A DNA stretch of 36,380 nucleotides from Pontiellaceae bacterium B12219 (GTDB lineage: Bacteria; Verrucomicrobiota; Kiritimatiellia; Kiritimatiellales; Pontiellaceae): the NCBI GenBank assembly GCA_029432795.1, contig JARNMJ010000045.1, positions 1-36,380 of the forward strand, in the 5' to 3' direction. The notes beneath the pieces were generated by a model. The model was not told where the DNA came from. It ran no database searches and saw only the letters and a program-made list of their open reading frames with translations. Each line of letters starts with the position of its first letter. Position 1 is the first letter of the stretch. The position numbers and the translations under genes are program-made. Shown piece after piece: positions 2,863-34,394 of this stretch.

Positions 2863-2895
2863 TACTTGTACACACCTCGCGTCAGCACTGGGACA
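2863..2895 (-). promoter_or_regulatory. 33-bp cluster motif, copy H
   Basis: Minus strand: TGTCCCAG, 13 bases, TGTGTA, 2 bases, AGTA. It has the same spacing as the seven other copies but carries G instead of A at position 8. It lies 168 bp upstream of the GTG start of the LamG-PKD gene. The rest of the 2695-3178 intergenic region holds the bidirectional terminator near 3126-3161 and nothing else I recognise. Confidence 0.65.
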
Positions 2896-3125
2896 GCACG
2901 TCTGTTTTTTTTAATTAAACGTCCGCATCTCGATACCGTCCCCGTATTTCAGGCATATTTCCACTCCACCAGCATCTGCCCCCGTTGGGAGAAAAAGTTT
3001 TGACCGACATGATTTTGCTTAATCATCTCGAAAGAAAGGTGCGGCGGCGGTTGCACCCCCGAATCGACCGCCATCTTTGGATCCCGTTTTTTCCAGAATG
3101 TCTATCTTCTTGAAAACGAGAGCTG

Positions 3126-3161
3126 AAAAAAACTCTCCGATCGCACGGAGAGTTATTTTTT
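3126..3161. terminator. Bidirectional intrinsic terminator
   Basis: AACTCTCCG (3131-3139), a 6-base loop, and CGGAGAGTT (3146-3154) form a perfect 9-bp stem. On the minus strand the hairpin runs straight into a T tract, ending the PEP-CTERM gene that stops at 3179. On the plus strand it is followed by ATTTTTTCT, so it may work both ways. Confidence 0.9.
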
Positions 3162-3178
3162 CTATCTCAATAGATGGA

Positions 3179-3886
3179 TTAAATCATCAACCGGCGGCGG
3201 ATAAAGAGTATGCCCCCACCAAAAGCAGCAACCAAACCGATGGTTGCAGGTTCAGGAATCGCCCGAATCTGAATCGCATTGATATTGGCATTTCCGCTCC
3301 CGAGATAATCAGCAAAAAAAGAAGCTTCACCCGTTGCATCCGCCGTAAAGGTACCAATGACATACGTGCCACCCGCACCACCAGCAGCGACGCTGCCATT
3401 ACCGAGGGAAGTAAACTCGCCGGCCGTACCACCGTCCAAAACAAGAACATTGTTTCTGCCGGATCTCGTATCCGAAGAGAAAACCTGAACCTGATATTCC
3501 TGTCCATCGGTCAAATTACCCAGCGTAATGGTACCGCCGGCCGCCTTAAGCCATTGGGCAGAACCCAGCAACGAGCCGAAATCACCTGATAGATTACTAA
3601 AACCAGCATCTGCCCCGTTATCGATCGGATCAATCATCACATTTCCGTCATTGTTCAGATCGGCAATACCACCGCCTCCGGTACCATCGAACGCAACTGT
3701 GTTAACAGTAAAACTGTCGGTTGCTCCAAGGTTATAGGCATATTCCAACGCCCCGAGTGTACTGACATCAGTATCACCCGTCAGACCCGCAGTAGATTCC
3801 CAGTCCACAATAACAGCGGCCTGAGAAACCCCCGCCATCAACACGGCCATTCCGGTCACTCCTATGATCTTCTTTATTTTTTTCAT
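3179..3886 (-). CDS. PEP-CTERM sorted surface protein
   Basis: About 235 residues. An N-terminal signal peptide (KKIKKIIG then a hydrophobic core ending SQA) and a C-terminal sorting signal, IPEPATIGL then a hydrophobic helix and RRRLMI, mark it as an exosortase (EpsH/XrtA-type) substrate. The body is Gly/Asp/Asn-rich and beta-type (DFGSLLGSAQWLKAAGG, then TITLGNLTDGQEYQVQV), like many PVC PEP-CTERM proteins of unknown function. AAGGG lies 6 bases before the ATG at 3886, which favours it over the ATG at 3889. The gene is monocistronic: the 33-bp motif lies 54 bp upstream and an intrinsic terminator 25 bp downstream. No exosortase gene is present here. It could be an adhesive or matrix protein made together with the degradative enzymes; that is inference. 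Confidence 0.85.
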   Translation of the reverse strand: MKKIKKIIGVTGMAVLMAGVSQAAVIVDWESTAGLTGDTDVSTLGALEYAYNLGATDSFTVNTVAFDGTGGGGIADLNNDGNVMIDPIDNGADAGFSNLSGDFGSLLGSAQWLKAAGGTITLGNLTDGQEYQVQVFSSDTRSGRNNVLVLDGGTAGEFTSLGNGSVAAGGAGGTYVIGTFTADATGEASFFADYLGSGNANINAIQIRAIPEPATIGLVAAFGGGILFIRRRLMI

Positions 3887-3940
3887 CATATTCCCTTATT
3901 TTTCACTCGAATGGACCATCCAAACAAGTATGCCTTTACA

Positions 3941-3973
3941 TACTCGTACACAGAGAAACTGCATATTGGGACA
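3941..3973 (-). promoter_or_regulatory. 33-bp cluster motif, copy G
   Basis: Minus strand: TGTCCCAA, 13 bases, TGTGTA, 2 bases, AGTA. It lies 54 bp upstream of the PEP-CTERM start and is one of the best matches to the consensus of the eight copies. Confidence 0.75.
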
Positions 3974-4200
3974 TGACATTTTATTTTTTGTAAAAAAAGA
4001 GAAAGCGGTCGATAAAAAATGTAATCCGTTGCGCCTACATCAATTAGCTCTGATTTCATAGATGAAACGAATTAATAAAAAAGGAGATAATATCGACGAT
4101 ATCCGCGAACAGTTTTTTCTGACAAGCAATCTACCTTCTCCGAGCGAGATCAAACTCTGCCAGAGCACCTGATCAGCATACTCTTTCCTTGCATTTTTGA

Positions 4201-4419
4201 GTGGATTTGAAAAGCCAGTCGGCGGCGGTTATACGCAAAAAACCGGAACAGCTCTAAAAGGTATATTGGAAAAAATGTTGTTTGGTTGCCGGACTGCTCT
4301 TGGGCAATGTGGGTGTTCACGAGGAAACAATCGTTCGGTACGTCGAATACCAAAAACGGAAGAATTCAGACCAGCTCCGATTGGAGCTGAAAACAGGCGG
4401 AACGAAGTGGAACCATAGA
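4201..4419 (+). pseudogene. Decayed IS200/IS605-type (Y1) transposase C-terminal remnant
   Basis: This is the only plausible coding trace on the plus strand. Reading from 4201 gives VDLKSQSAAVIRKKPEQL, an in-frame TAA at 4255-4257, then KVYW, LLLGNVGVHEETIVRYVEYQ and KRKNSDQLRLEL. The order resembles the end of IS200-like TnpA proteins: a LKxxSAxxxRKxxPEL helix, a [L/Y]WxxxxxxGxVG segment, then ETxxxYVExQ. The catalytic HUH and Tyr parts are not seen upstream, and a stop interrupts the frame, so the element is dead. A GC-rich hairpin follows directly (4420-4439), as expected at an IS200/IS605 end. The family assignment is from memory of the motif order and is moderately secure. The rest of the 3890-4480 gap holds promoter copy G and nothing else recognised. 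Confidence 0.5.
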
Positions 4420-4480: not shown

Positions 4481-7093
4481 TTAATTCTTGATCTTGGGAA
4501 ATACCTGCACTTCTGCCAAACACAAACCATTCGTGCCCGAATTTAACTGAACCTTCACATACCGTCCCTTTGCCCCCCCCGCATTGAGCGTTGTCGGGAA
4601 CTTAGCCTGTTTGGTCTGATGGCTGGACCAGACTTCATTCAGACGGTCATCTAACACGTAAACAGTATAGTCACTGAGCCTGCCTTTAGCACTGTCATCC
4701 GATCTGTTCCAGATGTTGATATCCCCGATCTCATAGCTCTCTTCAAGATCGACCTGCCACCATGCATTTTCTTCATTCCCCGTATGCGTCACAGATCCGT
4801 CGAAAAAAGCTCCTGCGGTATTCCCGTCAACGGCTTTACTTGCTGATGCTCTATGAGACGTCGAAGACTGTGTGGCCGGTTTTCCTTTAGCAACATTTGA
4901 ATTGATCAGCTTTTTAGGTATCGGAATGCTGGTTGCCAGCACTTCAACCTCAGCAAGGCTTAGCGCATCTGTGCCAGTCAACTGAACTTTAACGATTCTG
5001 CCGACTTTGCCCCCCACATACACGGAGGTCGGACGTTCCGCAGGCGAGGTCTGATGGCGAGACCAGACTTCCGCCTGCTTCTCATCCAATATGGAAATCG
5101 TATAATCACTTAATTTTTCAGCGCCAGCAGCACCTGTCTGGTTCCAGATTTTGATTTCATCAACCAGAAAGTCTGTTCCCAGATCCACCTGCCACCATGC
5201 GTTCGACTCGCTACGCGTACACGTTACAGAAGCATCTTCCCGCTCACTGCTTGTGTTACCGTCAACGGCTCTTCCGGGCTCCGCATTAAAGTCCGTACTG
5301 GACTGCGTTGCCGTTGCATTCAAAGCCACATTGAAAGGAACGGGAGAAACCCCCTCCTCCGTTTGAACCACCTTTTTAATGGTTCCATCTTCATTATAGT
5401 ATAAGTAATCCACACATACGGAACGTCTGTGGTTACGGCCACTCAGTGCTGCACTATGATAGAATATATACCAGCGTCCTTTGAACTTGACGATCGAATG
5501 GTGATTGGTAACACACCCCGGAACGGCATCCATCAGGATACCCTGATAGGTAAACGGCCCCATCGGAGAAGTACTCGTGCAATAGGCGATCGGGGCATGG
5601 GTGCCGGTGGCGTAGGATAAATAATAGATTCCATTTCTTTTATGCATCCACGGCCCCTCATAAAACTTGGGCAAGGTCACGTACTTTACGCCACTGTGAC
5701 TCTTCATATCATCATTCAGTTTTACAATACGCAATGCATCCCGATGCCCGCCCCAGTATAGATATGCCTGTCCGTCATCATCAATAAAACAGGCCGGATC
5801 GATCTCATCTGTACCCTCAATATACGATCCCGAGTCTGTAAACGGACCGGAGGGAGAGCTGCTGGTTGCAACACCGATTCTGTTTTTATTATTCTTATCT
5901 CTCGCCGGATAGTAGTAATAGTAGGTCCCGTCTTTATACGCACAATCCGGTGCCCACAAATTCCCGCGACGGGCCCAACTGATATCGTCGGTATGCATAA
6001 TCTGACCGTGGTCGGTCCAGTTGACCAAATCCGGTGAAGAAAATACATGATGCCCATTCATCGAACCATAGCTCGTTGCATCATCCTGATCATGCGATGG
6101 ATAAATCCACATTTTGCCATCAGCCCAAACATGGGCCGAAGGATCTGCGGTATACATGTGGGTGATAATTGGGTTTCCACCCTTTTCCATGTCTATACCG
6201 CGCGTTTGCTGAACCATATTGATCGTTCCGTCGTCATTAAACGTGACTTCATCGAAACAAATGGAACGGTTGGTTGCTTTTCCGCCGGAAAGATCCGCAC
6301 TGTGATAAAACAGGTACCACGTTCCTTTATACTCCACAATAGAACCATGCGTGGTATACGAACTCGTTTTCTCGAGAAAAACGCCTTTGCAATCCCAGGG
6401 TCCCATCGGATTTGAACTCATGGCATACCGCATCTGATGACCGTCTTTTGCATTATCCGGATACATCAGGTAATAAATTCCTTCCCGTTTGAAAACAAAC
6501 GGTCCCTCGCGGTGGTCATCGAGCTCCTGCAAAACCCACTCGCCGTCAATCTCCATCATGTTCTTTTTGAGTTTGACCGCATAGCATTTTTTATTAACCA
6601 CAGCATACAAATAGGCCTGTCCGTCATCATCGATGAACACACAAGGGTCGCAATAGGTCGTAGCGCCTTTCACAGTTCCCTTCACCTTGAAATCAGAAGC
6701 GGGCTTTGTGCTGGTTGCAATGCCGATTTCCCACTCGCCATCATCATTGGTATGGGGAAAATAAAAATAGTAGATTCCATCTTTATACACACAGTCCGGT
6801 GCCCACATAGACCCCGAAACCCCACTCCAGTCGACATCCCGCGAATGCAGAATTTCCCCATGGTCTTTCCAGTTGAGCATGTCGTCGGTGGAAAAGACAT
6901 GATACCCATCCATGGACCGATAGCCTTTTCCTTTGATATCCGTCGACGGATAAACATACAGGCGGCCATCCTCCCATACATGGGCAGACGGATCGGCGGT
7001 GAACATATGTTTAATGAACGGATTCGTGGCTCGCTCTGCAGCGTGCAGATTTCCAACTAAACAAATAATACATACAACAAATAGTTTTCTCAT
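4481..7093 (-). CDS. Tandem GH43-like glycosidase with two F5/8-type (fucolectin-like) domains
   Basis: 870 residues. Signal peptide of about 19 residues (GNLHAA), then two five-bladed beta-propellers of GH43 type: about residues 22-300 and 305-590. Each has the expected triad: base Asp in TADPSAHVW (Asp34, and again near 314), the pKa-modulating Asp in DPCVFIDDDGQAYLY or DPACFIDDDGQAYLY, and acid Glu in REGPFVFKR or YEGPWMHKR. GH43 enzymes are arabinosidases, xylosidases or galactosidases; the specificity is not readable. Two discoidin-type domains follow (about 590-725 and 729-870), each with AVDGNT, NAWWQVDLG/E, IxIWN and LSDYT, resembling fucolectin/CBM32-47 modules. AAAGG precedes the ATG. 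The first propeller and signal peptide are near-copies of those in the adjacent gene (9896-7596). The 33-bp motif lies 164 bp upstream. Confidence 0.85.
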   Translation of the reverse strand: MRKLFVVCIICLVGNLHAAERATNPFIKHMFTADPSAHVWEDGRLYVYPSTDIKGKGYRSMDGYHVFSTDDMLNWKDHGEILHSRDVDWSGVSGSMWAPDCVYKDGIYYFYFPHTNDDGEWEIGIATSTKPASDFKVKGTVKGATTYCDPCVFIDDDGQAYLYAVVNKKCYAVKLKKNMMEIDGEWVLQELDDHREGPFVFKREGIYYLMYPDNAKDGHQMRYAMSSNPMGPWDCKGVFLEKTSSYTTHGSIVEYKGTWYLFYHSADLSGGKATNRSICFDEVTFNDDGTINMVQQTRGIDMEKGGNPIITHMYTADPSAHVWADGKMWIYPSHDQDDATSYGSMNGHHVFSSPDLVNWTDHGQIMHTDDISWARRGNLWAPDCAYKDGTYYYYYPARDKNNKNRIGVATSSSPSGPFTDSGSYIEGTDEIDPACFIDDDGQAYLYWGGHRDALRIVKLNDDMKSHSGVKYVTLPKFYEGPWMHKRNGIYYLSYATGTHAPIAYCTSTSPMGPFTYQGILMDAVPGCVTNHHSIVKFKGRWYIFYHSAALSGRNHRRSVCVDYLYYNEDGTIKKVVQTEEGVSPVPFNVALNATATQSSTDFNAEPGRAVDGNTSSEREDASVTCTRSESNAWWQVDLGTDFLVDEIKIWNQTGAAGAEKLSDYTISILDEKQAEVWSRHQTSPAERPTSVYVGGKVGRIVKVQLTGTDALSLAEVEVLATSIPIPKKLINSNVAKGKPATQSSTSHRASASKAVDGNTAGAFFDGSVTHTGNEENAWWQVDLEESYEIGDINIWNRSDDSAKGRLSDYTVYVLDDRLNEVWSSHQTKQAKFPTTLNAGGAKGRYVKVQLNSGTNGLCLAEVQVFPKIKN

Positions 7094-7257
7094 TTTACAA
7101 CCTTTAACTTATATCCTCAGCATTCATTAACATCTAAAAACAAACAATTTACTTCAAAGCGATTTATAAAAACTCTCCTTACATAAACAACTCACGAAAG
7201 ACCGCGCTTACATACCGTTCAAAACCCGGAAACCAAACACCAGATCACGAATTCAGA

Positions 7258-7290
7258 TATTCATGAGCAGGTAAACCGGGAATTAGGACA
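7258..7290 (-). promoter_or_regulatory. 33-bp cluster motif, copy F
   Basis: Minus strand: TGTCCTAA, 13 bases, TGCTCA, 2 bases, AATA. It carries T at position 6 like copy E, the other GH43 upstream region. It ends 164 bp before the tandem GH43 start. Confidence 0.65.
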
Positions 7291-7364
7291 CCATTAAGCA
7301 GAGAACCAAACCGATCATACCTCACTCGCCCGATTTCAACTTCATCATCGAGTTGATCAAAACT

Positions 7365-7382
7365 GGACAAAGACATTTGTCC
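7365..7382. repeat. Short inverted repeat GGACAAA-N4-TTTGTCC
   Basis: A perfect 7-bp stem with a 4-base loop lies between the two GH43 genes. It has no T tract on the minus strand and shares GGACA with the cluster motif. It could be an operator half-site pair or a weak hairpin; the function is unknown. Confidence 0.4.
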
Positions 7383-7595
7383 TTATGTTTTTCCCCGCGA
7401 GCACTACCGCCCTCTTATCTTCCCCAAGAACCTCACAAACTACGAGGTATTAAGAAAATACGATCTTTAGCAACGCCCACTCGCAATGCCCTAAACCATT
7501 TCCAAGTTACCCATTGCCTTTGACCGCCCCCGGGAACTCCTTGCAACAGCACTCTCTGCCGCCATCCAAATTAACCTATGCCCAAAATCCTGATC

Positions 7596-9896
7596 TCATT
7601 GAACCAAGATCACACGATAGAAGCTCGCATTATTGGTCATTGGAGATGAGACCACCATTGGAGACGTTGCCAGAGCGGCAAGATCCGTCACGACCTGCCA
7701 GGAATTAGATGAAATCAGGTCGTCACTCGATTCAACCCGATAATGCTGCCCAACAGTCCCCGAAAAGCTCACCATCAAATTGCCGTTGGATACCGTCAAC
7801 CCCGGCTCAAATACCGGAATATGCGGACCGCCAGATACCGTCGGGACGCCGAAAATATCGATTTCACGCCCCACCACAACTCCGCCGGCATTGGCATCTT
7901 CCGTAATGTAAAACACAATCGATTTGACGCCGGAAGCCATTACACCTCCGGAATCCTTGCGAAAAGAAACCGTCGTCCAATACGATGCAGGCGAATTCGG
8001 CGCCCAATGCTCCGGCCCGGCCAAAACCGCTCTTGAACCGTCAACAAAGATTACGATGATCTTATAGCCCTGATTCGCACGGCCACCGGAACCGGTCGTC
8101 CATCCAAAGTAGGAGTCAATGCCCGTTAGATCGTAGCCCAATGTATTGACGGAGGTATCGAACGTCACTGTGATCGTATTACCACTACCCATCGTCACTT
8201 CGCCTGAATCAGATGAATCGCCGACATCATTTCCAGCTGTTCCGTTGAACAGTTGCGCATGTTCATTAGCCACTTCATTTCCACCCGTGGCGGAACTGCT
8301 GAGATATTGAGTCTGCGCCAAATCGTTGGTACTGACACTGGGTGCCGAACTGGACCCGGAAGCCTCGTATACGATCCCCGGAAGAACAGGAAGCGATTCG
8401 GTACCCGTCGGAACTCCAAAAATATCAATTTCGCGGCCGATCACTACCCCTCCGGCATTCGCATCCTCCGTAAAATTAAACGTGACCGACTTAACTCCCG
8501 AGGCCATTACACCCCCGGAAACCTCTCTGAACGAAACCGTCGTCCAATACAACGCAGGCGAATTCGGAGCCCAATGATTCGGCTCGACCAATTTGGCACT
8601 GGAGCCGTCCACATAGGTCACAATAATCTCATACCCCTGATTCGAGCGTCCCCCGTTACCGGTCGACCATCCAAAGTAGGAATCAATTCCGGTGAGATCG
8701 TACCCATCAGCATTAACTGATGTATCCAGAGTCACCGTAAGCGTATTTCCGCTATCCAGCGTCACTTCACCGGGGTCGGATGAATCGCCGACAGTATCCC
8801 CGGGCGTGCCATTGAAGAGTTGTGCATGCTCCCCGCTATTGCCCAATTCATTTCTTCCCGTGGCGGAACTGCTGAGATATTGAGTCTGCGCCAAATCGTT
8901 GGTGCTAACGCTTGGAACCTCTGTTTCTTCGGATCCGGAGGCCGTATAAACAATATTAGAAAGAACGGGCAGGTCTGGCGGCTGATAGAGTTCGTCCTGC
9001 GTTTGCTCAACCAGATTGATCGTGCCGTCCTCATTAAAAGTGACGACATCGAAACAAATGGAACGATTCGTTTCCAACCCTCCGGAAAGGTCTGCGTTGT
9101 GATAAAACAGATACCATGTCCCTTTATACTCCACAATCGAACCATGCGAGGTATAGGAACTCGTCTTTTCCAAAATAACCCCTTTGCTTTCCCATGGACC
9201 CAGCGGACTGTCGCTCATGGCATACCGCATCTGATGACCACTGGTCGTACTATCCGGATAGATGCAGTAATAAATCCCTTCCCGTTTGAAAACAAAAGGA
9301 CCTTCACGGTGCGCGTAAAGCTCTTCCTGCCGAACCATCTCACCGTCAATCTCCACCATATTCTCTTTAAGCCTGGCCGCATGGCATTGTTTGTCTACCA
9401 CGGCATATAAATAGGCCTGTCCGTCATCATCGATGAACACACAAGGATCCGCATAGGTCGTACCGCCATTCACAAATCCCTGCACCGTGAAATCAGAAGC
9501 GGGATTCGTGCTGGTGGCGATACCAATTTCCCACACCCCATCATTATTGGTATGAGGAAAATAATAGTAGTAGATCCCATCTTTATACGCACAGTCCGGT
9601 GCCCACATGGACCCCGACACATCGCTCCAGTAGACATCCCGTGAATGCAGAATTTCTCCATGATCGGTCCAGTTGAGCATATCGTCAGTGGAAAAGACAT
9701 GATACCCATCCATGGACCGATAGTTTGTTGATCCTTCAATATCCGTTGAAGGATAGACATACAGGCGGCCATCATCCCATACATGAGCGGACGGATCGGC
9801 GGTGAACATGTGTTTAATAAATGGATTCGTGGCTCGTTCTGCTGCATGCAGATTTCCAATGAAACAAATGACACATATAATAAACAGAACTCTCAT
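7596..9896 (-). CDS. GH43-like glycosidase with duplicated C-terminal beta-domain
   Basis: 766 residues. Signal peptide (about 19 residues, ending HAA), then one GH43-type five-bladed propeller to about residue 300 with base Asp34 in TADPSAHVW, DPCVFIDDDGQAYLY, and acid Glu in HREGPFVFK. After it come two copies of a roughly 190-residue unit (about 307-498 and 499-688), each with SVSTNDLAQTQYLSSSATG, GYDLTGIDSYFGW, HWAPNSP and GGVVxGREIDIFGVPT. This unit matches no family I can name and may be a carbohydrate-binding beta-sandwich. The last 75 residues form a module with YRVESSDDL and a terminal SFYRVILVQ. AAAGGAAA precedes the ATG. The propeller is a close paralogue of the first propeller of the downstream gene, so the pair arose by duplication followed by different tails. 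The 33-bp motif lies 143 bp upstream. Likely an exo-acting side-chain enzyme. Confidence 0.85.
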   Translation of the reverse strand: MRVLFIICVICFIGNLHAAERATNPFIKHMFTADPSAHVWDDGRLYVYPSTDIEGSTNYRSMDGYHVFSTDDMLNWTDHGEILHSRDVYWSDVSGSMWAPDCAYKDGIYYYYFPHTNNDGVWEIGIATSTNPASDFTVQGFVNGGTTYADPCVFIDDDGQAYLYAVVDKQCHAARLKENMVEIDGEMVRQEELYAHREGPFVFKREGIYYCIYPDSTTSGHQMRYAMSDSPLGPWESKGVILEKTSSYTSHGSIVEYKGTWYLFYHNADLSGGLETNRSICFDVVTFNEDGTINLVEQTQDELYQPPDLPVLSNIVYTASGSEETEVPSVSTNDLAQTQYLSSSATGRNELGNSGEHAQLFNGTPGDTVGDSSDPGEVTLDSGNTLTVTLDTSVNADGYDLTGIDSYFGWSTGNGGRSNQGYEIIVTYVDGSSAKLVEPNHWAPNSPALYWTTVSFREVSGGVMASGVKSVTFNFTEDANAGGVVIGREIDIFGVPTGTESLPVLPGIVYEASGSSSAPSVSTNDLAQTQYLSSSATGGNEVANEHAQLFNGTAGNDVGDSSDSGEVTMGSGNTITVTFDTSVNTLGYDLTGIDSYFGWTTGSGGRANQGYKIIVIFVDGSRAVLAGPEHWAPNSPASYWTTVSFRKDSGGVMASGVKSIVFYITEDANAGGVVVGREIDIFGVPTVSGGPHIPVFEPGLTVSNGNLMVSFSGTVGQHYRVESSDDLISSNSWQVVTDLAALATSPMVVSSPMTNNASFYRVILVQ
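7841..8975 (-). repeat. Tandem duplication inside the GH43 gene
   Basis: Two copies of about 560 bp (about 7841-8390 and 8408-8975) are offset by 567 bp. The best conserved stretch, near 8282-8328 and 8864-8911, is almost identical at the DNA level for over 40 bases. The duplication adds one whole protein unit and keeps the frame. Confidence 0.8.
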
Positions 9897-10397
9897 TTCA
9901 TTTCCTTTAGCTTCCGTAGCTTGAAATTATTTTTTCACCATTATAAACCGGTTGATCCTAAAAACTGCCGGCTTCAGGAACATCGTATTGTCATGACCGC
10001 TCAAAACCCAGCAGCCAGACTCCGGACGGTCTCTTCGAATACCTATACACAGGCAAACAGAGAGTTAGGACACCCAGGAAATAAAAAGGAATAAACCTCC
10101 CTCTTCAGCATAAAATTCCAGCCTCAGATACTCGCCAGAAAAAGGTAAGCATATCGGAACCGAAGCTTTACCAAACCAACCACATTTAAAACACATCTCG
10201 CCCAAATCATCGACGCGAATGGAGACAGGAAACTTTACGCGTAAACCACGCTAAAATTTACCTTTTAGAAATTCCCCCGATCAGAGTATCACACAGAAGC
10301 TGAGATTAACGCCGTCTTCGATCATGCGGGTCGGCCCCCAGAGAAAACAGAGCTCCATAATTTTTACGATCCGTATCCGATTTTCCTTATCCGAATC
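9897..10397. other. Intergenic region upstream of the single-propeller GH43 gene
   Basis: 501 bases without a gene. It holds the 33-bp motif at 10040-10072. No intrinsic terminator was found after the lyase gene that stops at 10398. Nothing else is recognised. Confidence 0.6.
10040..10072 (-). promoter_or_regulatory. 33-bp cluster motif, copy E
   Basis: Minus strand: TGTCCTAA, 13 bases, TGTGTA, 2 bases, GGTA. It ends 143 bp upstream of the GH43 gene at 9896 and carries the T-variant first box also found in copy F. Confidence 0.7.
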
Positions 10398-12665
10398 TTA
10401 TTCCCCTATCCCCAACAGCTCAATCGCATAAGTTCCTTCCGGAATATTAAGACTGACACCATCAGGTTGCGAAAACTCAACAGGAACGTTGACCCCGTTC
10501 AGTTTAACGGATGAAATAGCCGGAGCATAAAAGGTCACATTGCTCCCTGATGAAATAATCTGACCGCTCATTCCTTTTCCTGCAGCTGCAACCGTCAGAT
10601 ATACAACAACCGGAGTGTCCGATTTAAAACCCGGTAGAATATTCCGCTCCGATTCAAATGCGGTACCCTTTACGAAATAAGAATCCAACTGCCCTGCAAC
10701 TTTTCTATAAACGATATTTTCACCCTGAAAAGATTCCGTTTCATAATTTTCAACGGCTGTGCCCCTTGAAGTGAGCGCCACATCGACAACGTTTCCTTGA
10801 TGTATACGGCAACCGGTATACGCACCGGACCCTATCCGGTTCATGCTGCCGATCTCGTGGTCCTGATCACCGGGAAAAAGCACGGTGAGAATATCCGCTT
10901 TATGATTACGGGTTGAATAGTTGTTATACAAATACTCCGCCCGGTAATGGCGGGGCCTCATCTGATTCACCATCTCTCTCTTTTCAACTGAGACAGGAGG
11001 CGTCCCAAGAAAAGTGGCCAGCTTTACGTTGTTCTCACTATATAGCACCGGCCCCTTGGCCCCTTCTTTCACCTTAAGTTCCGACAAGTAGTGCGTTTTA
11101 TCTTCAACCGTTTCCACAATGGCCGTATTGGGGTGCCATACAATGTTAACCGTTGCACCGGAAGCATCGGTGGTTACATGGTCCATAGCAATATAATATC
11201 CGTTTGCACCCTCTGCAGCCTGTACAAAGATAACATCCCGGAAATGCTCCCCCTTTATGGCCGTTTTGCTGGACGCCCTGAAATATTCGATGCCCGTTCC
11301 GACCATCCCTTCCGTAATTCCATTGCCGCATTTACTCTGGTGTCTCTCCCCGTCAATCATTAATACATTTCCGGATTCGGAGTTATATTTAATGAAATCC
11401 CATGAGCTGGTGAGCCCCTCAGCGGAAGGGCTGTTATCCGGACCGGCATATCCGGAATTTCTTAAAATCCGCTCGCCATATCCTGACAGGCCAATCGAAT
11501 TGGCTTCATATTGGGCATGCCAATCCACATCATTGGTCATCGACAAAACACTCAAATATAACGCATCTGTTGATGGCTCATTCCCAATGAGCGCAGCATA
11601 ATTATCAAATAGTCTGCTGGGAGCCATTTCGGCGTCATTGATGTCGAATTCAATGGGGTTGTTTTCCGAAGCAGAACCCGCCATCATCACATAGGATAAT
11701 AAATATCCCTGAAGCGTTGCGGTCTCCTGCGACAGCCCTGCCTGCTCTTTCAGCTTCCACATCGCATATCGGTAGGCTTTGTCGGAAAAACGGGCGGCTC
11801 TGGCGATCGTTGGCGTCGATAGTTCAGTGCCGTTTATCGCCCAGGGTATTCCGTTCCCGCGGGTATCGCCATAAAACATATTCGCTCCAAATGGAGCCGC
11901 CGCATACCCATACATAAATTCATGCAGATTACGCATTCCCGGATTGCTGAAATAGTCGTGATACCCCATGTATTCCATCAGATCGAAAACAGAGTTTTTA
12001 GCCCCGCGTCCGATGTGATTAAATCGTCCTATAACGTACCCGTTACCTGCAGGGGAATACCCATCCGGGAAAAAATGGATCGCTAAATCACGATCATATT
12101 GTTTTTTTGCGGCCGCGAAGTTGGCTTCATCATTCGCGTATTTGTACCACATCATTCGCATAGCAATGCCATGCGGTTTCCATTGCTTTGTAACCAGCCT
12201 GAATATTTTATCCTTAATATCGCTCTCATAACGCACAAGGTCAGCTTCTTCGAGCTCTGGATGAATTACATCCAGCGCCAAAAGTGCATGTAAAAGTTCA
12301 TGGGATGGAACCGAAGAGGAGTCTGCCCCCGTACCAATGTTCATCGTTTGGATGCGGGTCTCGAACTTATTTTTAATCGCGGCTACATACCGGCTCTTAT
12401 TTTCCGGATCCAGGATGTACGCCAATGCGTTGGCTCCCATAACATCTCTGGTTTCACCATCACCCTGGTTTGCTATCGCAATCGCACTTGCTTTCATCGC
12501 TCCAAACTGCTCTGAAGTATCAGCCAATTCCCGCCAGTATGGATAATCGGCGGTATCGATAATATTCCCCGAAAAACCGGAAAGCGGCATAAAAACAAGG
12601 CCGCCGATTATTGCTAAAACACATCTGTAATGACTATCTGTTATCTTCATCAAAGGGCCCTTCAT
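10398..12665 (-). CDS. Heparinase II/III-like polysaccharide lyase candidate
   Basis: 755 residues. The signal peptide is visible after KITDSHYR (hydrophobic core ending LSGFSG). The N-terminal half is helical and resembles the alpha/alpha toroid of uronate lyases, with the run FFPDGYSPAGNGYVIG near residue 200 and NHIGRGAKNSVFDLMEYMG after it. The C-terminal half is beta-rich with DGERHQSKCGNGITEGMVG and RPRHYRAEYLYNNYSTRNHK, like the antiparallel sheet domain of heparinase II/III, alginate or ulvan-type lyases. Such enzymes cleave next to uronic acids by beta-elimination, here probably outside the cytoplasm. The PL family cannot be fixed by eye, and a hydrolase on the same fold is possible. 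GGAGG stands 10 bases before the ATG at 12665, supporting that start over the ATG at 12650. The 33-bp motif lies 208 bp upstream. Confidence 0.6.
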   Translation of the reverse strand: MKGPLMKITDSHYRCVLAIIGGLVFMPLSGFSGNIIDTADYPYWRELADTSEQFGAMKASAIAIANQGDGETRDVMGANALAYILDPENKSRYVAAIKNKFETRIQTMNIGTGADSSSVPSHELLHALLALDVIHPELEEADLVRYESDIKDKIFRLVTKQWKPHGIAMRMMWYKYANDEANFAAAKKQYDRDLAIHFFPDGYSPAGNGYVIGRFNHIGRGAKNSVFDLMEYMGYHDYFSNPGMRNLHEFMYGYAAAPFGANMFYGDTRGNGIPWAINGTELSTPTIARAARFSDKAYRYAMWKLKEQAGLSQETATLQGYLLSYVMMAGSASENNPIEFDINDAEMAPSRLFDNYAALIGNEPSTDALYLSVLSMTNDVDWHAQYEANSIGLSGYGERILRNSGYAGPDNSPSAEGLTSSWDFIKYNSESGNVLMIDGERHQSKCGNGITEGMVGTGIEYFRASSKTAIKGEHFRDVIFVQAAEGANGYYIAMDHVTTDASGATVNIVWHPNTAIVETVEDKTHYLSELKVKEGAKGPVLYSENNVKLATFLGTPPVSVEKREMVNQMRPRHYRAEYLYNNYSTRNHKADILTVLFPGDQDHEIGSMNRIGSGAYTGCRIHQGNVVDVALTSRGTAVENYETESFQGENIVYRKVAGQLDSYFVKGTAFESERNILPGFKSDTPVVVYLTVAAAGKGMSGQIISSGSNVTFYAPAISSVKLNGVNVPVEFSQPDGVSLNIPEGTYAIELLGIGE

Positions 12666-12873: not shown

Positions 12874-12906
12874 TAACAGTACACATCCCGGCTGCCGATT
12901 GGGACA
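12874..12906 (-). promoter_or_regulatory. 33-bp cluster motif, copy D
   Basis: Minus strand: TGTCCCAA, 13 bases, TGTGTA, 2 bases, GTTA. It sits between the terminator of the previous gene and the lyase start, where a promoter is expected. Confidence 0.7.
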
Positions 12907-13106: not shown

Positions 13107-15362
13107 CTACCTTTGCATGGCGATGATTAACCCCGGCCGAAGCCCTTTATCCGTATGCTCTTTCGTCGCTAGCTGAACCACACGTCCGTCATAGTGATAC
13201 TCGCCCTGCGTATAATAGGTATCGTTTGAATATTCATTCACATTATAACGGACAATGCGCACAACCACGAACGTCACATCCAGCGGAACCTCTCCCTCCA
13301 TAACGGACTGCAGATAATCGGTTACATCCAGATAGTTCGGAGTAAATTCCGATGAATGAAAGGACACCGCCCCAACAAACTCGCCACAAAGCCCCAATCC
13401 CGTTCCAACACCACTGGTAAACCCGGCATAGTTGTCTTCAATATCCACCATATCACCGGTTCCATCCGTCGTCCCCATTGTGTTTTTATCCACATGGTAC
13501 CGGCCCAATCCCGGCGCATCGGCCCATTCCATTCTGGAGCTTTCGCTCCAGTCCGCATTCTTCACGGCATAGACATGCAGAATCTCACGTTCAGATGAAT
13601 CCGGCCCACGGTTTCGCCCCGAGAGCTTCAACAGTGCTTTTCCTATATTTCCTGTTTCATCCATACGAAAACGCACCAGGCTTACGCGCCGCTGTTCGGG
13701 GTCGGAATGGTGATTGGAAACATTCATCGTGGAGGAAGAACCATACAGCCGGGTCTCCTTCACCATCTTGGTGCCATCATCGGAAGGAGCAATCGAACGA
13801 TAAGGCGAAAGCGATCCTGCCATGGGAACCTTAATCAAAAATGCGGTATAGTTCGGAGCATCAAATTTAATGCGTTTAAAGGTATTCACCCGCAGAATAT
13901 CAGTCACCTGCCCGGTATTCTTCTCATCCACCCGATGCAGGCTTACCACCGTATCGGCCTCAACATCCAATGCACTCAGATCAATCGATACCGACACCTC
14001 GGTTTCAGAACAATTGGAACCGTAAATATAGTAGACCTTATTTTCCTCATCCACCGCAGCAACGGTACGGCGGCGATCGTCCGCACCCGAAGTCACCGAA
14101 ACCGGAATCAGGGGTTTTCCGCCACGGAAATGACGGGCATACAGTTGATAGCAGGCTCCTCCCCGCGTGATACCGCCATAATTATACGGCGGCTTTTGGC
14201 TGACGTAACTCAGCTTATTCCCCAATCCAATCAAAGGAGCCCCGGATTGACGTGCTCCCAGCTTAAAAACAAATATTCCCCCGTCATCGCCTAATCCTGC
14301 GGGACCATGAACGGCAGAGGCTTCCAGAATCTGGGCCATGCTGATCCCAAATAACAAATCCTCTGTATCAAGACCTCTTCGGTCAAAATTTCCGCCTGTG
14401 CTCGTATTGTATTCCGTAATCACCAAAGGAATATCCGCACTGGGATCATTCTTTGCATTGGCAATATCGGCGCGTGCATTCAGAATAATTTTCTGTGAAT
14501 CCGCAGCATTCTGCCCATAGCGATGAAAGTGATACGTCCCGTAATTTCTCGGGTTGTTCACATCATACCGACCATAGAGATCATACTTCACTTTATTCCA
14601 GGAAACACTGCCCCAACAGTGAATGTCCTGATCGGGATGCGTAAAGCGGTAATCCCAATACACCCCCGGACAGTTAGGCCCGCAAATATTCAGCGTTAAG
14701 TTCTTTTCAAAATGTGTATTCACATCTTCCATGGCCTTGCGCATCGCATCGGCGCAAACCAGCCAGTGGCTCTCCCATGGATCATACGTTATGTGAGCAT
14801 GGGGTTCATTGCGAAAGGCATACATCGTCACATCATACTGCGAAGCGAAATGGTAGACCATCGTGTACCAGTATTTCCAATACGTAAACGTTTTCACCCA
14901 ATCGCCCGTAATTGGGGTATCGCTGATAAATGTGGTATTGTTTATTAACGGTTTGATATTCCGCTCCGCTAAATGCTGCATATGTTCCGGCATCCCGTCT
15001 TTTTCGAACTCATCATAAAAATGAGCCCAATCGATGAAAAAATTGCCGGCTGTGGCCTGCCGTGCAGGATTCTGCCGAATAGCTTCAGTCGCGGCATCAA
15101 ATGCAGCCGCCGACGTGATGCTACTGTCATCCGCCAAGGAAGAAAAAGAGGGTTTAAACCAGGTTCGATGTTCAGTAATGCCATACCAATTGAAATAATC
15201 ATACCCGGTCTGAAGAGCAAGGTCACCGCTGGCTCCCATGATCTTCGGGATGCGATAGCCGTTCGGAGGCTCCAGAACTATTGAATATTCCTCCGGAGCA
15301 GAACCCGCCGAAGTTACCAACAAAGCGGCGATTCCTGCCACCCAACCTATCGTCTTCATCAT
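13107..15362 (-). CDS. Clan GH-A-like glycoside hydrolase with CBM96/DNRLRE-type tail
   Basis: 751 residues. Signal peptide of about 21 residues (MMKTIGWVAG, ending SAGSA). The first 400 residues read as a (beta/alpha)8 barrel of clan GH-A: the acid/base Glu in FRNEPHAHI near residue 182 and the probable nucleophile Glu in VITEYNTSTGGN near 317. A beta-sandwich follows, typical of GH39/GH86-like proteins. Residues of about 550-751 form a DNRLRE/CBM96-like domain (RRVSLVRFRMDE, ALLKLSGRN, NADWSESS, LDVTDYLQSVMEG). The second GH-A protein here (23503-21476) has the same two motifs at nearly the same positions (about 178 and 311), so they belong together. GH39, GH86 and related marine families are the nearest I can suggest; the substrate is unknown. 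The 33-bp motif lies 49 bp upstream, and an intrinsic terminator follows. Confidence 0.75.
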   Translation of the reverse strand: MMKTIGWVAGIAALLVTSAGSAPEEYSIVLEPPNGYRIPKIMGASGDLALQTGYDYFNWYGITEHRTWFKPSFSSLADDSSITSAAAFDAATEAIRQNPARQATAGNFFIDWAHFYDEFEKDGMPEHMQHLAERNIKPLINNTTFISDTPITGDWVKTFTYWKYWYTMVYHFASQYDVTMYAFRNEPHAHITYDPWESHWLVCADAMRKAMEDVNTHFEKNLTLNICGPNCPGVYWDYRFTHPDQDIHCWGSVSWNKVKYDLYGRYDVNNPRNYGTYHFHRYGQNAADSQKIILNARADIANAKNDPSADIPLVITEYNTSTGGNFDRRGLDTEDLLFGISMAQILEASAVHGPAGLGDDGGIFVFKLGARQSGAPLIGLGNKLSYVSQKPPYNYGGITRGGACYQLYARHFRGGKPLIPVSVTSGADDRRRTVAAVDEENKVYYIYGSNCSETEVSVSIDLSALDVEADTVVSLHRVDEKNTGQVTDILRVNTFKRIKFDAPNYTAFLIKVPMAGSLSPYRSIAPSDDGTKMVKETRLYGSSSTMNVSNHHSDPEQRRVSLVRFRMDETGNIGKALLKLSGRNRGPDSSEREILHVYAVKNADWSESSRMEWADAPGLGRYHVDKNTMGTTDGTGDMVDIEDNYAGFTSGVGTGLGLCGEFVGAVSFHSSEFTPNYLDVTDYLQSVMEGEVPLDVTFVVVRIVRYNVNEYSNDTYYTQGEYHYDGRVVQLATKEHTDKGLRPGLIIAMQR

Positions 15363-15411: not shown

Positions 15412-15444
15412 TATTCATAAACAGCGCACCGTAAAATTGGGACA
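15412..15444 (-). promoter_or_regulatory. 33-bp cluster motif, copy C
   Basis: Minus strand: TGTCCCAA, 13 bases, TGTTTA, 2 bases, AATA. It ends 49 bp upstream of the GH-A/CBM96 start, the shortest leader of the eight. It also separates the cluster gene from the kinase gene that stops at 15555. Confidence 0.75.
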
Positions 15445-15554: not shown

Positions 15555-17573
15555 TTACTCTTCAATAATTTCGAGGTGGTCATTTGATTGAATTGCAAGC
15601 CGTAATTTTTCCACATCAAGCTGTCCGGATCGGACATAAACTTTTTTTAGCGTGGGAGTAATCAAAGTGTCATCAATAACTACCTTTTTACAATCACGGA
15701 GATCCAGCGTTTCAATTTGCAGCCCCTGAAGGTCTCCGAGATGTAACTGTTCACTTAAAACGGGCTTGAAAGATCGAAAAGGGAGAAAGCGCAATAAACA
15801 TTCATTAGATCCCCATTCGCTCGAAATAACCAGTCGTATTTTTTGGTTGGAAGAAAGAATCAATGAAGATGCAACAGCATCATACTGCATTACCAGGTCA
15901 TCATTCTTCTTATTAACATAGTCAAGCAATGCCTTCACGACAGGAGCATAGCCGGACTTATCAGACCGTGCCGCATGGTCATAGGCAACCACTCGCTCCA
16001 TAAGAGCCGGATGACTTGAGTCGATAACCAGCGGATTGTAAAGAAACTCAGTTAATTGAAGAACGCTCGGCCGATGCTCCTCTGAGAAATTAAATGAAGA
16101 AAAGGCGTTAACAAACAAAAGATAATCAGCCACATCACTATCAAGCGTAACCGGATGATTAAGCGCTCCTTTAAAATCCAACATAATGCAATCCAATGAG
16201 AACCGCTGAAGCCGGGCACTTGCACAATTAGGATTTAACGCAAAAGCCGAATCCACCAACTTACGAACTTCTCGAACAGTTTCAACCGGCCGGATAAAAA
16301 TACCCAGTTTTTTCAGATCGCTGGCCGATGTCGCCAGCTTGCGAGCCAACACCCACCGCTCGTTTTCCGAGCGATCCAATTCATCCTGGTAGAGGGTCGT
16401 CACATTCTCGGCCTGGGTGGCAAACTCAACAGCCCGCTCGCGCTCTAAAGCCGTTTTTTCCCGTTGCCGTTCTAAATTCTGGATAAAAAGGACGCTCATT
16501 GCAGAAAGGACGACAATGGCTAAAAACGTGATGGTCGTCGGAATTCGGTTGCGGGCCAGAAACAGACGTGCTTCACGGAAAAAACCAGGCTTTTCCGCCA
16601 GGGTCGAATAACCGCTCAGAAAATTAAAAATCTCATTCCGCAGCAACTTCACCGAATCATAACGATCCTCAGGCAATGGAGCCATCGCTTTCATAACCAC
16701 CGCTTCAAGGGCCTCAGGAATCTGCTGTTCCGGATACTGCCGGCGAGGGGGCACGATCTCCCCCTTTCGAGTGGCCTCAATAATCTGCTGTTTGGTTCCG
16801 GTAAAAGGCGGATGTCCGGTCAGTATCAGGTGTAAAATACACCCCAATGCAAAAATATCCGTCCGGTAGTTTTTTTCTGCACCGGGAATCACCTGCTCCG
16901 GAGCCATAAAACCAAGACTGCCCTTAATTTCGCCTACCAGCGTCATATTATGAATGGGGTGAGAAGGCCCGGCCCACTCCTCATCCGCCTCGGTCTCGCC
17001 GATCCACTTCGCCAATCCCCAATCACATACCAGTACATCCCCGAATTCATCCGCCTGAATGTTTTCAGGTTTAAGGTCAAGATGAACAATTTCTTTGGAA
17101 TGCGCATAAGCCACCGCATCACAGACCTTCATAAAGATTTCCAGCAACTCGTGCCGATCCTCCTGCTGATCCTGAATTCGATCCAGCAGGTTGGAATCCC
17201 CTTTCAGGTCCATCGTAAAAAAGGGAAGCCCTTTTTCGTCCACTCCGGCATCATGAACGGTGATGATATTCGGGTGATTCAGCGAAGCGGTCAGCCAGAC
17301 TTCCTGCACAAAAAGATCATAAAAATCCGCGCCTCGATCCTCCCGCAAACAGGCCATGGCCACCCAGCGCTTCGTATGGTTGTTAAAGGCCTTATAAACG
17401 CTCTTAACCGACCCCTGTCCAAGCAGACAATGGTCAGTATAACGCACATCCACTCGAGAAAATTCAGTATACGAAGGGCATAATTCTTCAAGACCATCCT
17501 CATCAAGCGAACTCGCTTTCCGATAAATGTCTGCAAGCCGGAGGTCCAACTGAAAGGGCCCGGATGGTTTCAC
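15555..17573 (-). CDS. Membrane Hanks-type Ser/Thr kinase lacking the VAIK lysine
   Basis: 672 residues. Kinase domain about 40-320: glycine loop GQGSVKSV (52-59), helix-C Glu91, catalytic HLDLKPEN (Asp166), metal-binding DWG in place of DFG (184-186), and MAPE (223-226). The beta-3 motif reads VAMA, so the usual ATP-binding Lys is Ala74 (codon GCC). One transmembrane helix (about 346-366) follows, then a coiled coil (about 367-430) and a C-terminal segment with leucine-rich spacing (LQIETLDLRDCKKVVID), perhaps a sensor. The kinase is predicted cytoplasmic, with the C-terminal part outside. The GTG start overlaps the sigma-factor stop (GTGA), so the two are translationally coupled. ECF sigma factors paired with Ser/Thr kinases are known in planctomycetes and relatives, where phosphorylation is thought to control the sigma factor. 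It may be a weak kinase or a pseudokinase. Confidence 0.88.
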   Translation of the reverse strand: MKPSGPFQLDLRLADIYRKASSLDEDGLEELCPSYTEFSRVDVRYTDHCLLGQGSVKSVYKAFNNHTKRWVAMACLREDRGADFYDLFVQEVWLTASLNHPNIITVHDAGVDEKGLPFFTMDLKGDSNLLDRIQDQQEDRHELLEIFMKVCDAVAYAHSKEIVHLDLKPENIQADEFGDVLVCDWGLAKWIGETEADEEWAGPSHPIHNMTLVGEIKGSLGFMAPEQVIPGAEKNYRTDIFALGCILHLILTGHPPFTGTKQQIIEATRKGEIVPPRRQYPEQQIPEALEAVVMKAMAPLPEDRYDSVKLLRNEIFNFLSGYSTLAEKPGFFREARLFLARNRIPTTITFLAIVVLSAMSVLFIQNLERQREKTALERERAVEFATQAENVTTLYQDELDRSENERWVLARKLATSASDLKKLGIFIRPVETVREVRKLVDSAFALNPNCASARLQRFSLDCIMLDFKGALNHPVTLDSDVADYLLFVNAFSSFNFSEEHRPSVLQLTEFLYNPLVIDSSHPALMERVVAYDHAARSDKSGYAPVVKALLDYVNKKNDDLVMQYDAVASSLILSSNQKIRLVISSEWGSNECLLRFLPFRSFKPVLSEQLHLGDLQGLQIETLDLRDCKKVVIDDTLITPTLKKVYVRSGQLDVEKLRLAIQSNDHLEIIEE

Positions 17574-18181
17574 TCCGGCGGTTCCAACTCTTCAATGAGT
17601 GCACGAACTCCGCGATAGAGCCGTTTCTTAACCCGTTTGCGCAGCGTATACACCGAGGCCACACTCAACCCCGTCTGCTCCGCAATCTCCGCGGCGGAAA
17701 GTCCGTCCAGCCCCAGTTCAAACACTTTAATGGCCTGGCCCTTAAACACCTTACGAATGCGTTCCATGGCAATGTTCACAACATATGCTTCCCATTCCTG
17801 CTCGATCCGCTTTTCGATCTCAGAGGAATTTTCCATACGGCTGATGACATAGTCCTCGCCGAAAACCTGGATATGCTCCTCTTCACTCTTGTGCTTGCGG
17901 TAGTTCACCAAGGCGGCATTACGAATCACGACACTCAACCAGGTCCGAAAACGGGAGCGTGAACTGTCGTAGCGCGATATATTTTTCGTCAGCGACAGCA
18001 ACACCTGCTGTGCGACATCCTCAACTTCATAATCGGCAACACCCATATTGTGCAGAATATAAAAAATGAACTTGCGATAGTGCTCAACGAACTCCTCCCA
18101 CGCAGCTTCATCTTCCAAATCACAAGCCCGTTGAAGCAGTGTGTACCGGGTATTATTCAGCTTGTTCGTATTTTCATTCAT
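17570..18181 (-). CDS. ECF-type RNA polymerase sigma factor
   Basis: 203 residues from the ATG at 18181; longer in-frame starts would overlap the promoter. Region 2 spans about 30-90: DYEVEDVAQQVLLSL and RSRFRTWLSVVIRNAALVNYRKHK. Region 4 spans about 130-195: FELGLDGLSAAEIAEQTGL, then SVASVYTLRKRVKKRL, a helix-turn-helix for the -35 element. There is no anti-sigma gene nearby; the downstream overlapping gene is a kinase, the arrangement seen for STK-linked ECF groups in PVC bacteria. A housekeeping promoter lies 22 bp upstream, leaving a leader of only about 15 bases, and no clear Shine-Dalgarno is seen. It is the only transcription regulator in the window and the natural candidate to read the 33-bp motif found before eight CAZyme-type units; that link is inference. 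Confidence 0.92.
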   Translation of the reverse strand: MNENTNKLNNTRYTLLQRACDLEDEAAWEEFVEHYRKFIFYILHNMGVADYEVEDVAQQVLLSLTKNISRYDSSRSRFRTWLSVVIRNAALVNYRKHKSEEEHIQVFGEDYVISRMENSSEIEKRIEQEWEAYVVNIAMERIRKVFKGQAIKVFELGLDGLSAAEIAEQTGLSVASVYTLRKRVKKRLYRGVRALIEELEPPE

Positions 18182-18202
18182 AAGTACGTTAAAAAAGAAG
18201 AG

Positions 18203-18231
18203 ATTATAGTTCAAAGCTGTAAATACATCAA
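18203..18231 (-). promoter_or_regulatory. Sigma-70-type promoter for the sigma/kinase operon
   Basis: On the minus strand TTGATG (18231-18226), a 17-bp spacer and a perfect TATAAT (18208-18203) lie 22 bp upstream of the ATG. It differs from the 33-bp element before the CAZyme genes, so the regulator appears to be made independently of its presumed regulon. Confidence 0.75.
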
Positions 18232-18483
18232 TCACACAAATCTAACCAGTATTGTCTATCATTTCCAGCCCGCACCTGCACCGATTGCTGCAGTATCGCA
18301 AGAAGGCATCACTGAAAGTTCCCCAAAAGGGGACGTCCATCAAACGGGCCATCCTCAGCGATATACTGCATATGTTCAATTCCCTTTCCCGATTGGATAT
18401 AAAAGTCGTCAACATCGGTGTATTCTGAACGACGGCCACGCAGCTTTTCATCAGGCCAAGCCAACAGAAGGCCTCATTCGCAA

Positions 18484-31252: not shown

Positions 31253-31285
31253 TACTTAAGAACCCCTCCGCAACAAATTGGGACA
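31253..31285 (-). promoter_or_regulatory. 33-bp cluster motif, copy B
   Basis: Minus strand: TGTCCCAA, 13 bases, GGTTCT (weak middle box), 2 bases, AGTA. It lies 64 bp upstream of the first gene of the operon that seems to run from 31188 to 18569. Confidence 0.7.
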
Positions 31286-34361: not shown

Positions 34362-34394
34362 TACTTATTACCCTCCTAACAGAAAATTGGGACA
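34362..34394 (-). promoter_or_regulatory. 33-bp cluster motif, copy A
   Basis: Minus strand: TGTCCCAA, 13 bases, GGGTAA, 2 bases, AGTA. It ends 79 bp upstream of the GH141-like copy 1 start and begins 49 bp beyond the stop of the upstream pseudogene. Confidence 0.72.

Follow-up and report, generated by a model that had tools for sequence, protein, structure and literature searches.

Organization of the locus

The window, which is the whole analysed stretch of 36,380 nucleotides from Pontiellaceae bacterium B12219, carries on its minus strand a cluster of the seaweed-polysaccharide degradation type, in which GH43, GH141-like, sulfatase and esterase genes surround the genes of an ECF sigma factor and a membrane Ser/Thr kinase; all features described below lie on this strand. 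The sigma factor gene (17570..18181; 203 residues) comprises a σ2 region (~17888-18091) and a σ4 region (~17618-17725). Pfam analysis of the open reading frame 17570-18235 identified Sigma70_r2 (1.3e-14) and Sigma70_r4_2 (6.2e-08), and the protein scores 75.0 bits against NCBIfam TIGR02937 (cut-off 42.9). With σ2 and σ4, a length of about 200 residues and no σ3, it displays the architecture of an ECF sigma factor. Its start was placed at ATG 18181 by comparison with homologues, GTG 18235 being rejected because it lies upstream of a promoter-like stretch and of the start conserved in homologues. The sigma stop codon overlaps the GTG start of the kinase gene (15555..17573; 672 residues; Pfam Pkinase, 5.8e-38) in a shared GTGA, as originally predicted. 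The same prediction gave the sigma gene its own promoter, TTGATG-N17-TATAAT; this housekeeping-like element of the sigma-kinase operon is indeed exact at 18231-18203 (18203..18231) as a consensus match, but such matches occur at the chance rate of one per 1.2 kb (1 found, 1.2 expected). The sigma gene lacks the 33-bp motif of the surrounding genes, no TGTCC motif being present upstream of it; the paralogous sigma gene L018 of this genome carries a TGTCC motif 119 nt before its own start. No SusC/SusD-type Pfam match was obtained for the 20 window open reading frames scanned, in a cluster that contig ends may cut, and the combination of anti-sigma factor and SusC/D pair that marks Bacteroidetes-type ECF systems was likewise not found by Pfam among these 20. 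The proposed counterpart of SusC/D-linked control thus holds as a functional likeness, namely local control of a glycan cluster, but not at the level of SusC/SusD-type proteins.

Promoter-like sites in the window and in the genome

The sites described as TGTCCYAA-N21-RNTA (33 bp) are real and clustered. Seven exact copies occur in the window, all on the coding strand and with their 3' ends ~50-210 nt upstream of seven gene starts: at 34362..34394, before the GH141-like gene 31436-34282; at 31253..31285, before the beta-helix/CBM gene 28123-31188; at 15412..15444, directly after the kinase gene and before gene 13107-15362; at 12874..12906, before gene 10398-12665; at 10040..10072 and 7258..7290, before the GH43 genes 7596-9896 and 4481-7093, respectively; and at 3941..3973, before gene 3179-3889, which encodes a secreted protein with a PEP-CTERM-like tail. 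An eighth window site with one mismatch (TGTCCCAG, 2863..2895) precedes the Laminin_G_3/PKD gene 955-2706. Across the 4.7-Mb genome the exact motif occurs 8 times, against 13 copies of a reversed-pattern control, and thus displays no genome-wide enrichment; a looser pattern is barely more frequent than its reversed control (31 vs 23). A genome-wide regulon of the exact motif was rejected, since only one of the eight copies lies outside the window. The concentration in 0.8% of the genome corresponds to a binomial p of ~1e-14. A repeat of mobile or structural nature with no regulatory role is a scarcely credible reading of the motif: some genome matches to TGTCCCAA fall within longer repeats, such as a set of seven identical copies, whereas the window sites have only two short blocks in common, differ in the intervening sequence and precede genes in coding-strand orientation.

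A putative -35/-10 promoter, TGTCCYAAT-N13-GNNYAY, describes the motif better; in this reading RNTA would be the downstream portion of the -10 region. RNTA was rejected as the principal second block, as GNNYAY at positions 22-27 (counted from 0) is better conserved in other clusters, and the original description of the motif is corrected in this respect.

Co-occurrence of sigma factor and motif

The predicted link between this sigma factor and the motif was borne out by its distribution across loci and genomes. With the window left out, sense-oriented TGTCCYAA was found upstream in 23/142 regions at 18 loci whose sigma factors are 50-70% identical, compared with 0/281 regions at the 34 loci that encode more distant paralogues (p = 3.5e-12), the groups being defined by sigma identity and an N-terminal signature, not by a tree. 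When the genome under study was left out altogether, 20/127 regions remained (p = 2.4e-11); both p-values treat regions as independent, while several loci are orthologues. Three real-looking sites missed by the ORF caller and read by eye (two in L062, which are divergent, and one in L065), as well as an L019 site beginning AGTCCCAA that is invisible to the pattern, stand outside these upstream-site counts. Two loci of the same sigma clade, L113 and L071, have no TGTCCYAA site upstream; L071 (46%), although placed in this clade of 21 rows, was counted with the distant loci. The match at L066 sits in GC-rich DNA and is not promoter-like. With the window included, 30 sites are in sense and 2 in antisense orientation, and a preset-free count of 8-mers in the close loci and the window gave TGTCCTAA, GTCCTAAT, GTGTCCTA and GTCCCAAT the highest ranks. 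Within the genus (28 genomes), TGTCCYAA-N14-KNTCATA is present in all four carriers of a sigma factor at least 60% identical and in 1/24 of the others, 14 of its 15 matches falling in carriers of the close sigma factor; the reversed control gave 3. The -35 block also recurs near 50-56% identical sigma factors of other Verrucomicrobiota (L106, L111, L112, L130 and L131), usually just after the kinase gene. Across loci, the products of genes behind or beside the sites include fucosidases, sulfatases, GH141-like proteins, SASA esterases and PEP-CTERM-like secreted proteins.

The pair is one member of a large family of Verrucomicrobiota pairs, whose sigma clades differ in the promoter sequences they use. 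Two further sigma clades have motifs of their own that track their sigma factors, and the σ4 recognition segment varies with the clade; de novo 8-mer searches of the locus groups GNEWQ, core and rest revealed no motif that could be placed as a promoter. Sequence comparisons strongly support the sigma-to-promoter step. The original prediction named the sigma factor a master regulator of the cluster, a reasonable description within the window; close paralogues of the same genome share the -35, however, and cross-talk between them is therefore possible.

The sigma factor and the kinase are the only regulators common to the 19 loci examined; the kinase gene lies beside the sigma gene in 19/19, in agreement with the predicted coupling. 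No other regulator family reaches six of the 19 loci, and another shared regulator was rejected on this ground; the families underlying this count come from single-linkage clustering, which chains multi-domain proteins, and one 18-locus family mixes sulfatases with CBM/beta-helix proteins. These data bear on the proposal that the motif is an operator of another DNA-binding regulator, the ECF-kinase pair merely residing in the same clusters. Four contigs of the same genome (C3, C232, C237 and C245) carry sites and no sigma gene on the same contig, as this proposal would allow; these sites were chosen by eye and are not independent evidence, and the contigs, short at 7-24 kb, may each hold part of a larger cluster. 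The lack of another widely shared regulator, the two blocks at a fixed spacing, which fit a sigma promoter, and the pairing of three sigma clades with three different motifs make the operator proposal quite improbable.

The membrane Ser/Thr kinase

The kinase comprises a catalytic domain (16632..17438), a single transmembrane segment predicted from hydropathy (residues 346-364; 16482..16538) and a C-terminal region of 308 residues (15558..16481). A strong transmembrane segment, one per protein, is found in 21/21 kinase homologues. The catalytic motifs are atypical, with no VAIK lysine, HLD166 instead of HRD and DWG184 instead of DFG; the motifs common to the 30 kinases picked by their similarity to the window kinase do not constitute a survey. 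Ala74 (17352-17354) occupies the VAIK position in 53/53 kinases, and Lys57 (17403-17405), located in the glycine-rich loop, is invariant in 53/53, as are D166, K168, N171, D184 and E91. The lysine is thus placed as in WNK kinases, an alignment with PknB agreeing with this assignment. Only one kinase of this genome lacks an ECF partner, and this one is canonical. Descent from the WNK family is not supported: among the 60 PDB matches listed, the best relatives of solved structure are of the PknB type, and WNK kinases are absent from these 60.

The replacement of the VAIK lysine by alanine, of HRD by HLD and of DFG by DWG throughout the family would suit a pseudokinase or sequestering partner, in effect an anti-sigma factor in kinase form that does not phosphorylate the sigma factor. 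The sigma factor also retains the acidic core-binding motif, and so could be active unless held back; σ2.2 reads E52-V-E54-D55 in the window, and within the family D/E52 is kept in 46/48 rows and D55 in 47/48. However, the catalytic Asp, Lys and Asn, the metal-binding Asp and the αC Glu are invariant in 53/53 kinases, and the invariant glycine-loop lysine corresponds to the placement by which WNK kinases remain active. In addition, T11 of the sigma factor is found in 47/48 rows, with a gap in the remaining one, and 47/48 have T or S at position 14. A non-phosphorylating partner is rather unlikely, the kinase being a candidate active enzyme.

The C-terminal region is a putative extracytoplasmic sensor, modelled by AlphaFold2 with a mean pLDDT of 92.1 as a long helix followed by TPR-like helices and then β-strands. 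Foldseek searches of this domain against the PDB returned nothing below E = 0.15, with TPR proteins among the top rows, and a lectin or other known sensor fold was rejected for want of a significant match. The domain is homologous across all aligned pairs and displays no lectin-like match, so that a glycan ligand of this domain is conjectural.

A proposed cluster-specific switch and its relation to known systems

Taken as a sigma factor with its putatively active kinase partner, the pair is probably a cluster-specific transcription switch that reads the promoters of the surrounding genes. An envelope or glycan-derived cue would act through the C-terminal domain of the transmembrane Ser/Thr kinase, which would control the ECF sigma factor of the same operon, activating it by phosphorylation, for which the conserved Thr11/Thr14 near the N-terminus are possible sites. 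Active sigma factor would then direct RNA polymerase to TGTCCYAAT-N13-GNNYAY (-35, spacer, -10) before the neighbouring carbohydrate-degradation genes. Phosphorylation of the sigma factor by the kinase, the signal and the function in vivo are what we infer from these features. The comparisons suggest that each such cluster may possess its own dedicated switch.

ECF43 sigma factors operate with Hanks-type kinases, as in Vibrio EcfP/PknT and Xanthomonas EcfK/PknS, and the available excerpts describe, as in the window, an ECF gene that adjoins a transmembrane Ser/Thr kinase gene with no anti-sigma factor (PMC8999054, PMC13147305). As targets, these excerpts name polymyxin resistance and type VI secretion rather than glycan clusters (PMC8999054, PMC13147305). 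The ECF43 mechanism is the only established ECF phospho-switch found in the literature searched, in the portions available. In contrast to ECF43, where the σ2.2 acids are replaced (STTA/QTTA), the window pair combines an adjacent Hanks-type kinase gene with a DxxD motif that is not replaced with phosphorylatable Thr; the ECF43 phospho-switch is inapplicable because the family keeps these acids, and ECF43-type activation was rejected, the ECF43-type site being absent. In this respect the family resembles the groups other than ECF43, which excerpts of PMC8999054 describe as keeping a DAED-like motif. The other kinase-linked groups (ECF59, 61, 62, 217 and 283) derive mainly from Planctomycetes, and no promoter or regulon for them was found in the portions of the searched literature available.

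Local control of glycan genes through a membrane sensor and a partner is shared with the ECF-sigma/anti-sigma and hybrid two-component systems of Bacteroidetes, as outlined in the excerpts of PMC10766802. This contrasts with the window pair, where a Ser/Thr kinase takes the place of the anti-sigma factor or histidine kinase. The cellulosome sigma factors of Clostridium thermocellum are of the SigI type, not ECF. They resemble the present family in that several sigma paralogues each serve a separate regulon, but are under anti-sigma control; at least six sigma/anti-sigma systems are described for the cellulosome genes in the excerpts available (PMC10766802). In the kinase, the ATP-binding lysine is shifted from β3 to the glycine loop/β2, as excerpts describe for WNK kinases (PMC12599244). 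In contrast to eukaryotic WNK, the window kinase is bacterial and transmembrane, has Ala and not Cys at the β3 residue, and carries HLD and DWG.

Marine Verrucomicrobiota and Kiritimatiellota encode sulfatases and glycosidases in very large numbers, and neither a cluster-specific sigma-kinase regulator for these organisms nor WNK-like kinase chemistry in bacteria was found described in the available parts of the literature searched. The chances are about even that Verrucomicrobiota, including Kiritimatiellota, use up to dozens of paralogous sigma-kinase pairs per genome as parallel polysaccharide channels, with clade-specific promoter codes and kinases of the WNK-like lysine type; if true, this would be a PVC answer to the glycan-sensing systems of Bacteroidetes. 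The relocated lysine would add an independent, bacterial example of a WNK-like active site, and counts of kinases by canonical K-D-D motifs, as they appear in excerpts of PMC11032199, may score such kinases as non-functional. A readable promoter code would allow regulons to be predicted from sequence, would assign orphan enzyme genes to a single substrate cluster and would make the signal testable. The several sigma clades with different motifs would be a natural set of candidate orthogonal sigma-promoter pairs.

Sigma-kinase operon and the promoter-like motif

The window takes in the whole of C213, a contig in a draft genome of 4.75 Mb. Its retained gene models lie on the minus strand throughout and encode two GH43 proteins, GH141-like beta-helix proteins, a sulfatase, a SASA esterase, and CBM and Ig-domain proteins. 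The ECF sigma gene (17570-18181, minus strand) begins at the ATG common to its homologues, a GTG at 18235, upstream of this ATG, being rejected as start. Its stop overlaps the GTG start of the kinase gene (15555-17573, minus strand), as correctly described in the original prediction, the overlap reading GTGA. The TTGATG-N17-TATAAT promoter ascribed to the pair is present to the letter but occurs at chance frequency.

The 33-bp motif TGTCCYAA-N21-RNTA has eight exact copies genome-wide, seven of them in the window, where each lies upstream of a gene on its coding strand; an eighth window site, at 2895, carries one mismatch. Reversed as a control, the pattern is found 13 times in the genome; copies by chance are therefore common, and the information lies solely in the clustering within the window (p ~1e-14). 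Alignment of 34 curated sites reveals TGTCCYAAT, 13 bases and GNNYAY, followed by a weaker TA-rich part. The RNTA initially proposed falls within this last part, whereas the conserved second block is GNNYAY, mostly GNTCAT, with GTGTAY at four of the eight window sites. The two blocks, at 13-base spacing, resemble an ECF promoter.

The two adjacent GH43 genes (window 4481-9896), which have near-identical N-termini and a motif each, are a duplication in which the promoter was carried along or regained. A 29-bp match, TGTCCCAAAGTCTCCG..., found in seven identical copies on contigs C6, C55, C210, C212, C224, C256 and C272 of the same genome (G000), is probably a piece of a longer repeat and no promoter site.

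Co-occurrence of motif and sigma factor

The genome encodes seven more sigma-like proteins, three of them 60-69% identical to the window sigma, and many others exist in the genus: 27 of the 58 genomes searched, the own genome among them, gave matches at E <= 1e-10 (20 in G005 and 26 in G021). The compared loci comprise 40 sigma-bearing stretches from relatives and 13 named loci, partly the same places, and TGTCCYAA was counted within oriented upstream regions. It occurs in 7/13 regions of the window, 13/59 in eight other loci with a sigma at least 60% identical, 10/83 in ten loci with sigmas 50-56% identical, and 0/281 in 34 loci with more distant paralogues. The difference between close and distant loci holds with the window left out (p = 3.5e-12) and with the entire own genome left out (20/127 versus 0/281, p = 2.4e-11). 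Window counted, 30 occurrences are sense and 2 antisense, and an 8-mer count with no preset motif ranks pieces of this -35 highest for the close group. With three sites overlooked by the ORF caller (two belong to L062, one to L065) and L019's AGTCCCAA variant, all read by eye, nine of nine close loci have a site. No TGTCCYAA upstream site was found among the regions of L113 and L071, and the match in L066 looks accidental.

A search of 28 genomes of the genus with TGTCCYAA-N14-KNTCATA returned 15 matches, against 3 for the reversed control. Four of these genomes carry a sigma of 60% identity or more; each of the four has the pattern, and together they account for 14 of the matches. The last is in G027, where the best sigma reaches 52% identity. 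There are no matches in the other 23 genomes, including the 7.4-Mb G021 with its 26 more distant paralogues. In Akkermansiaceae, Roseibacillus and other Verrucomicrobiota, too, this -35 stands close to sigmas of 50-56% identity, as a rule in the gap separating the kinase gene from the one after it (L106, L111, L112). L130 and L131 are two more loci that have it; the -10 block is variable among these loci. Recognition of the motif promoters by the sigma factor, as originally suggested, is well supported by this comparison, as motif and close sigmas co-occur across loci and genus genomes.

The paralogous sigma gene of L018 has the motif 119 nt ahead of its own start (L018:2615-2647); unlike the window pair, it is likely positively autoregulated.

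Motifs of other sigma clades

The sigma4 recognition segment differs between three sigma clades. The 8-mer count identified TGTTTAGA in the group L073-L078, and CGTCTCCA preceded by TGTCCA in L084 and L086. TGTTTAGA-N15/16-CGTWY has 19 matches over the 28 genomes (reversed control, 6): 13 in G005 and G021, carriers of the second clade, 12 of these within two segments of ~75-80 kb around sigma genes, and six spread over five further genomes. TGTCCA-N16/18-CGTCTCCA has 11 matches (control, 0); the eight spaced by 17 bases all fall in G016 and G021, carriers of that sigma pair, and the three spaced by 18 bases in three further genomes. Since the genomes used for finding and for testing these two motifs partly overlap, both are weaker than the first.

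Second-clade sites occur at L073, L074, L075 and L077; that of L074 lies upstream of its own sigma gene, suggesting autoregulation. The TGTCCA-N17-CGTCTCCA sites of L084 and L086 lie upstream of 211-3753, 5096-7423, 944-4399 and 5594-7354, and this third-clade motif has a classical ECF-like CGTC -10.

Kinase and possible sigma factor activation

In 53 of 53 aligned kinases the VAIK lysine position, assigned to A74 by alignment with PknB structures, is alanine, while lysine K57 in the glycine loop is invariant, as are E91, D166, K168, N171 and D184. HRD is replaced by HLD in 52 kinases and HFD in one, and DFG by DWG, with the glycine altered in one of 53. The relocated lysine region (window 17352-17405, minus strand) is shared with 52 homologues and resembles that of WNK kinases, in which, according to PMC12599244, the moved lysine is a hallmark of active enzymes; by this analogy the kinases are expected to be active. 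Seven of eight kinases of the own genome lie near an ECF factor of this family and all display the relocated lysine; the eighth (G000:C273), with no such partner, has canonical VAIK and HRD.

Beyond a single transmembrane segment, the C-terminal part of the window kinase comprises 308 residues (predicted structure pLDDT 92), for which a fold search returned no significant match. It diverges faster than the whole kinase protein, its identity to the window's being 53-64% in close pairs and 27-37% in other aligned pairs. As judged from these alignments, it is one conserved domain rather than an assortment of lectins, and may sense a common envelope cue or partner protein. An outside signal would thereby act on the kinase-sigma pair, and the kinase would activate the sigma factor. 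The family retains the sigma2.2 acids (D/E52 in 46/48 rows, D55 in 47/48), unlike ECF43, where they are replaced (PMC8999054 and PMC13147305). Judging by conservation, the best candidate phosphosites would be N-terminal T11 (47/48 rows, the remaining one a gap) and position 14 (T in 41, S in 6 of 48).

Putative target genes and extent of the system

Clustering of 220 proteins from 19 loci, considering families in at least six loci, yielded the kinase (19/19), chained sulfatase/CBM/beta-helix proteins (18/19) and the sigma factor (17/19 in this gene set, tblastn recovering it in the loci where the set misses it), and no third regulator family. The genes that follow or flank the sites code for fucosidases, sulfatases, GH141-like proteins, SASA esterases, a putative rhamnosidase and PEP-CTERM-like secreted proteins, and several genes preceded by sites have no Pfam match. 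These gene types suggest that the substrates are sulfated fucose-rich glycans. Small secreted proteins with a PEPATxGL...RRR tail, which we take to be PEP-CTERM-like, are motif-preceded or neighbouring in the window (3179-3889), L057, L063, L064, L065, L067, L068 and L019, so surface-sorted proteins may belong to the regulons. GH141 endo-fucanases were recently described (PMC12786026).

Kinase-linked ECF factors are already known; the promoter code, glycan-cluster regulons and relocated lysine set this system apart. The literature searched gave no description of such a sigma-kinase system, but parts of it may be in print. Of 387 genomes sampled from the phylum, 66 have similar kinases (E <= 1e-60), and sigma factors of this family number 39, 55, 61 and 63 in four genomes of family f57 (two genera) and 5 in a fifth; the window is thus one member of a large system. 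The f57 genomes G231, G247, G349 and G270 have 39-63 such sigmas per 5-6 Mb and ~94-101 kinase candidates each.
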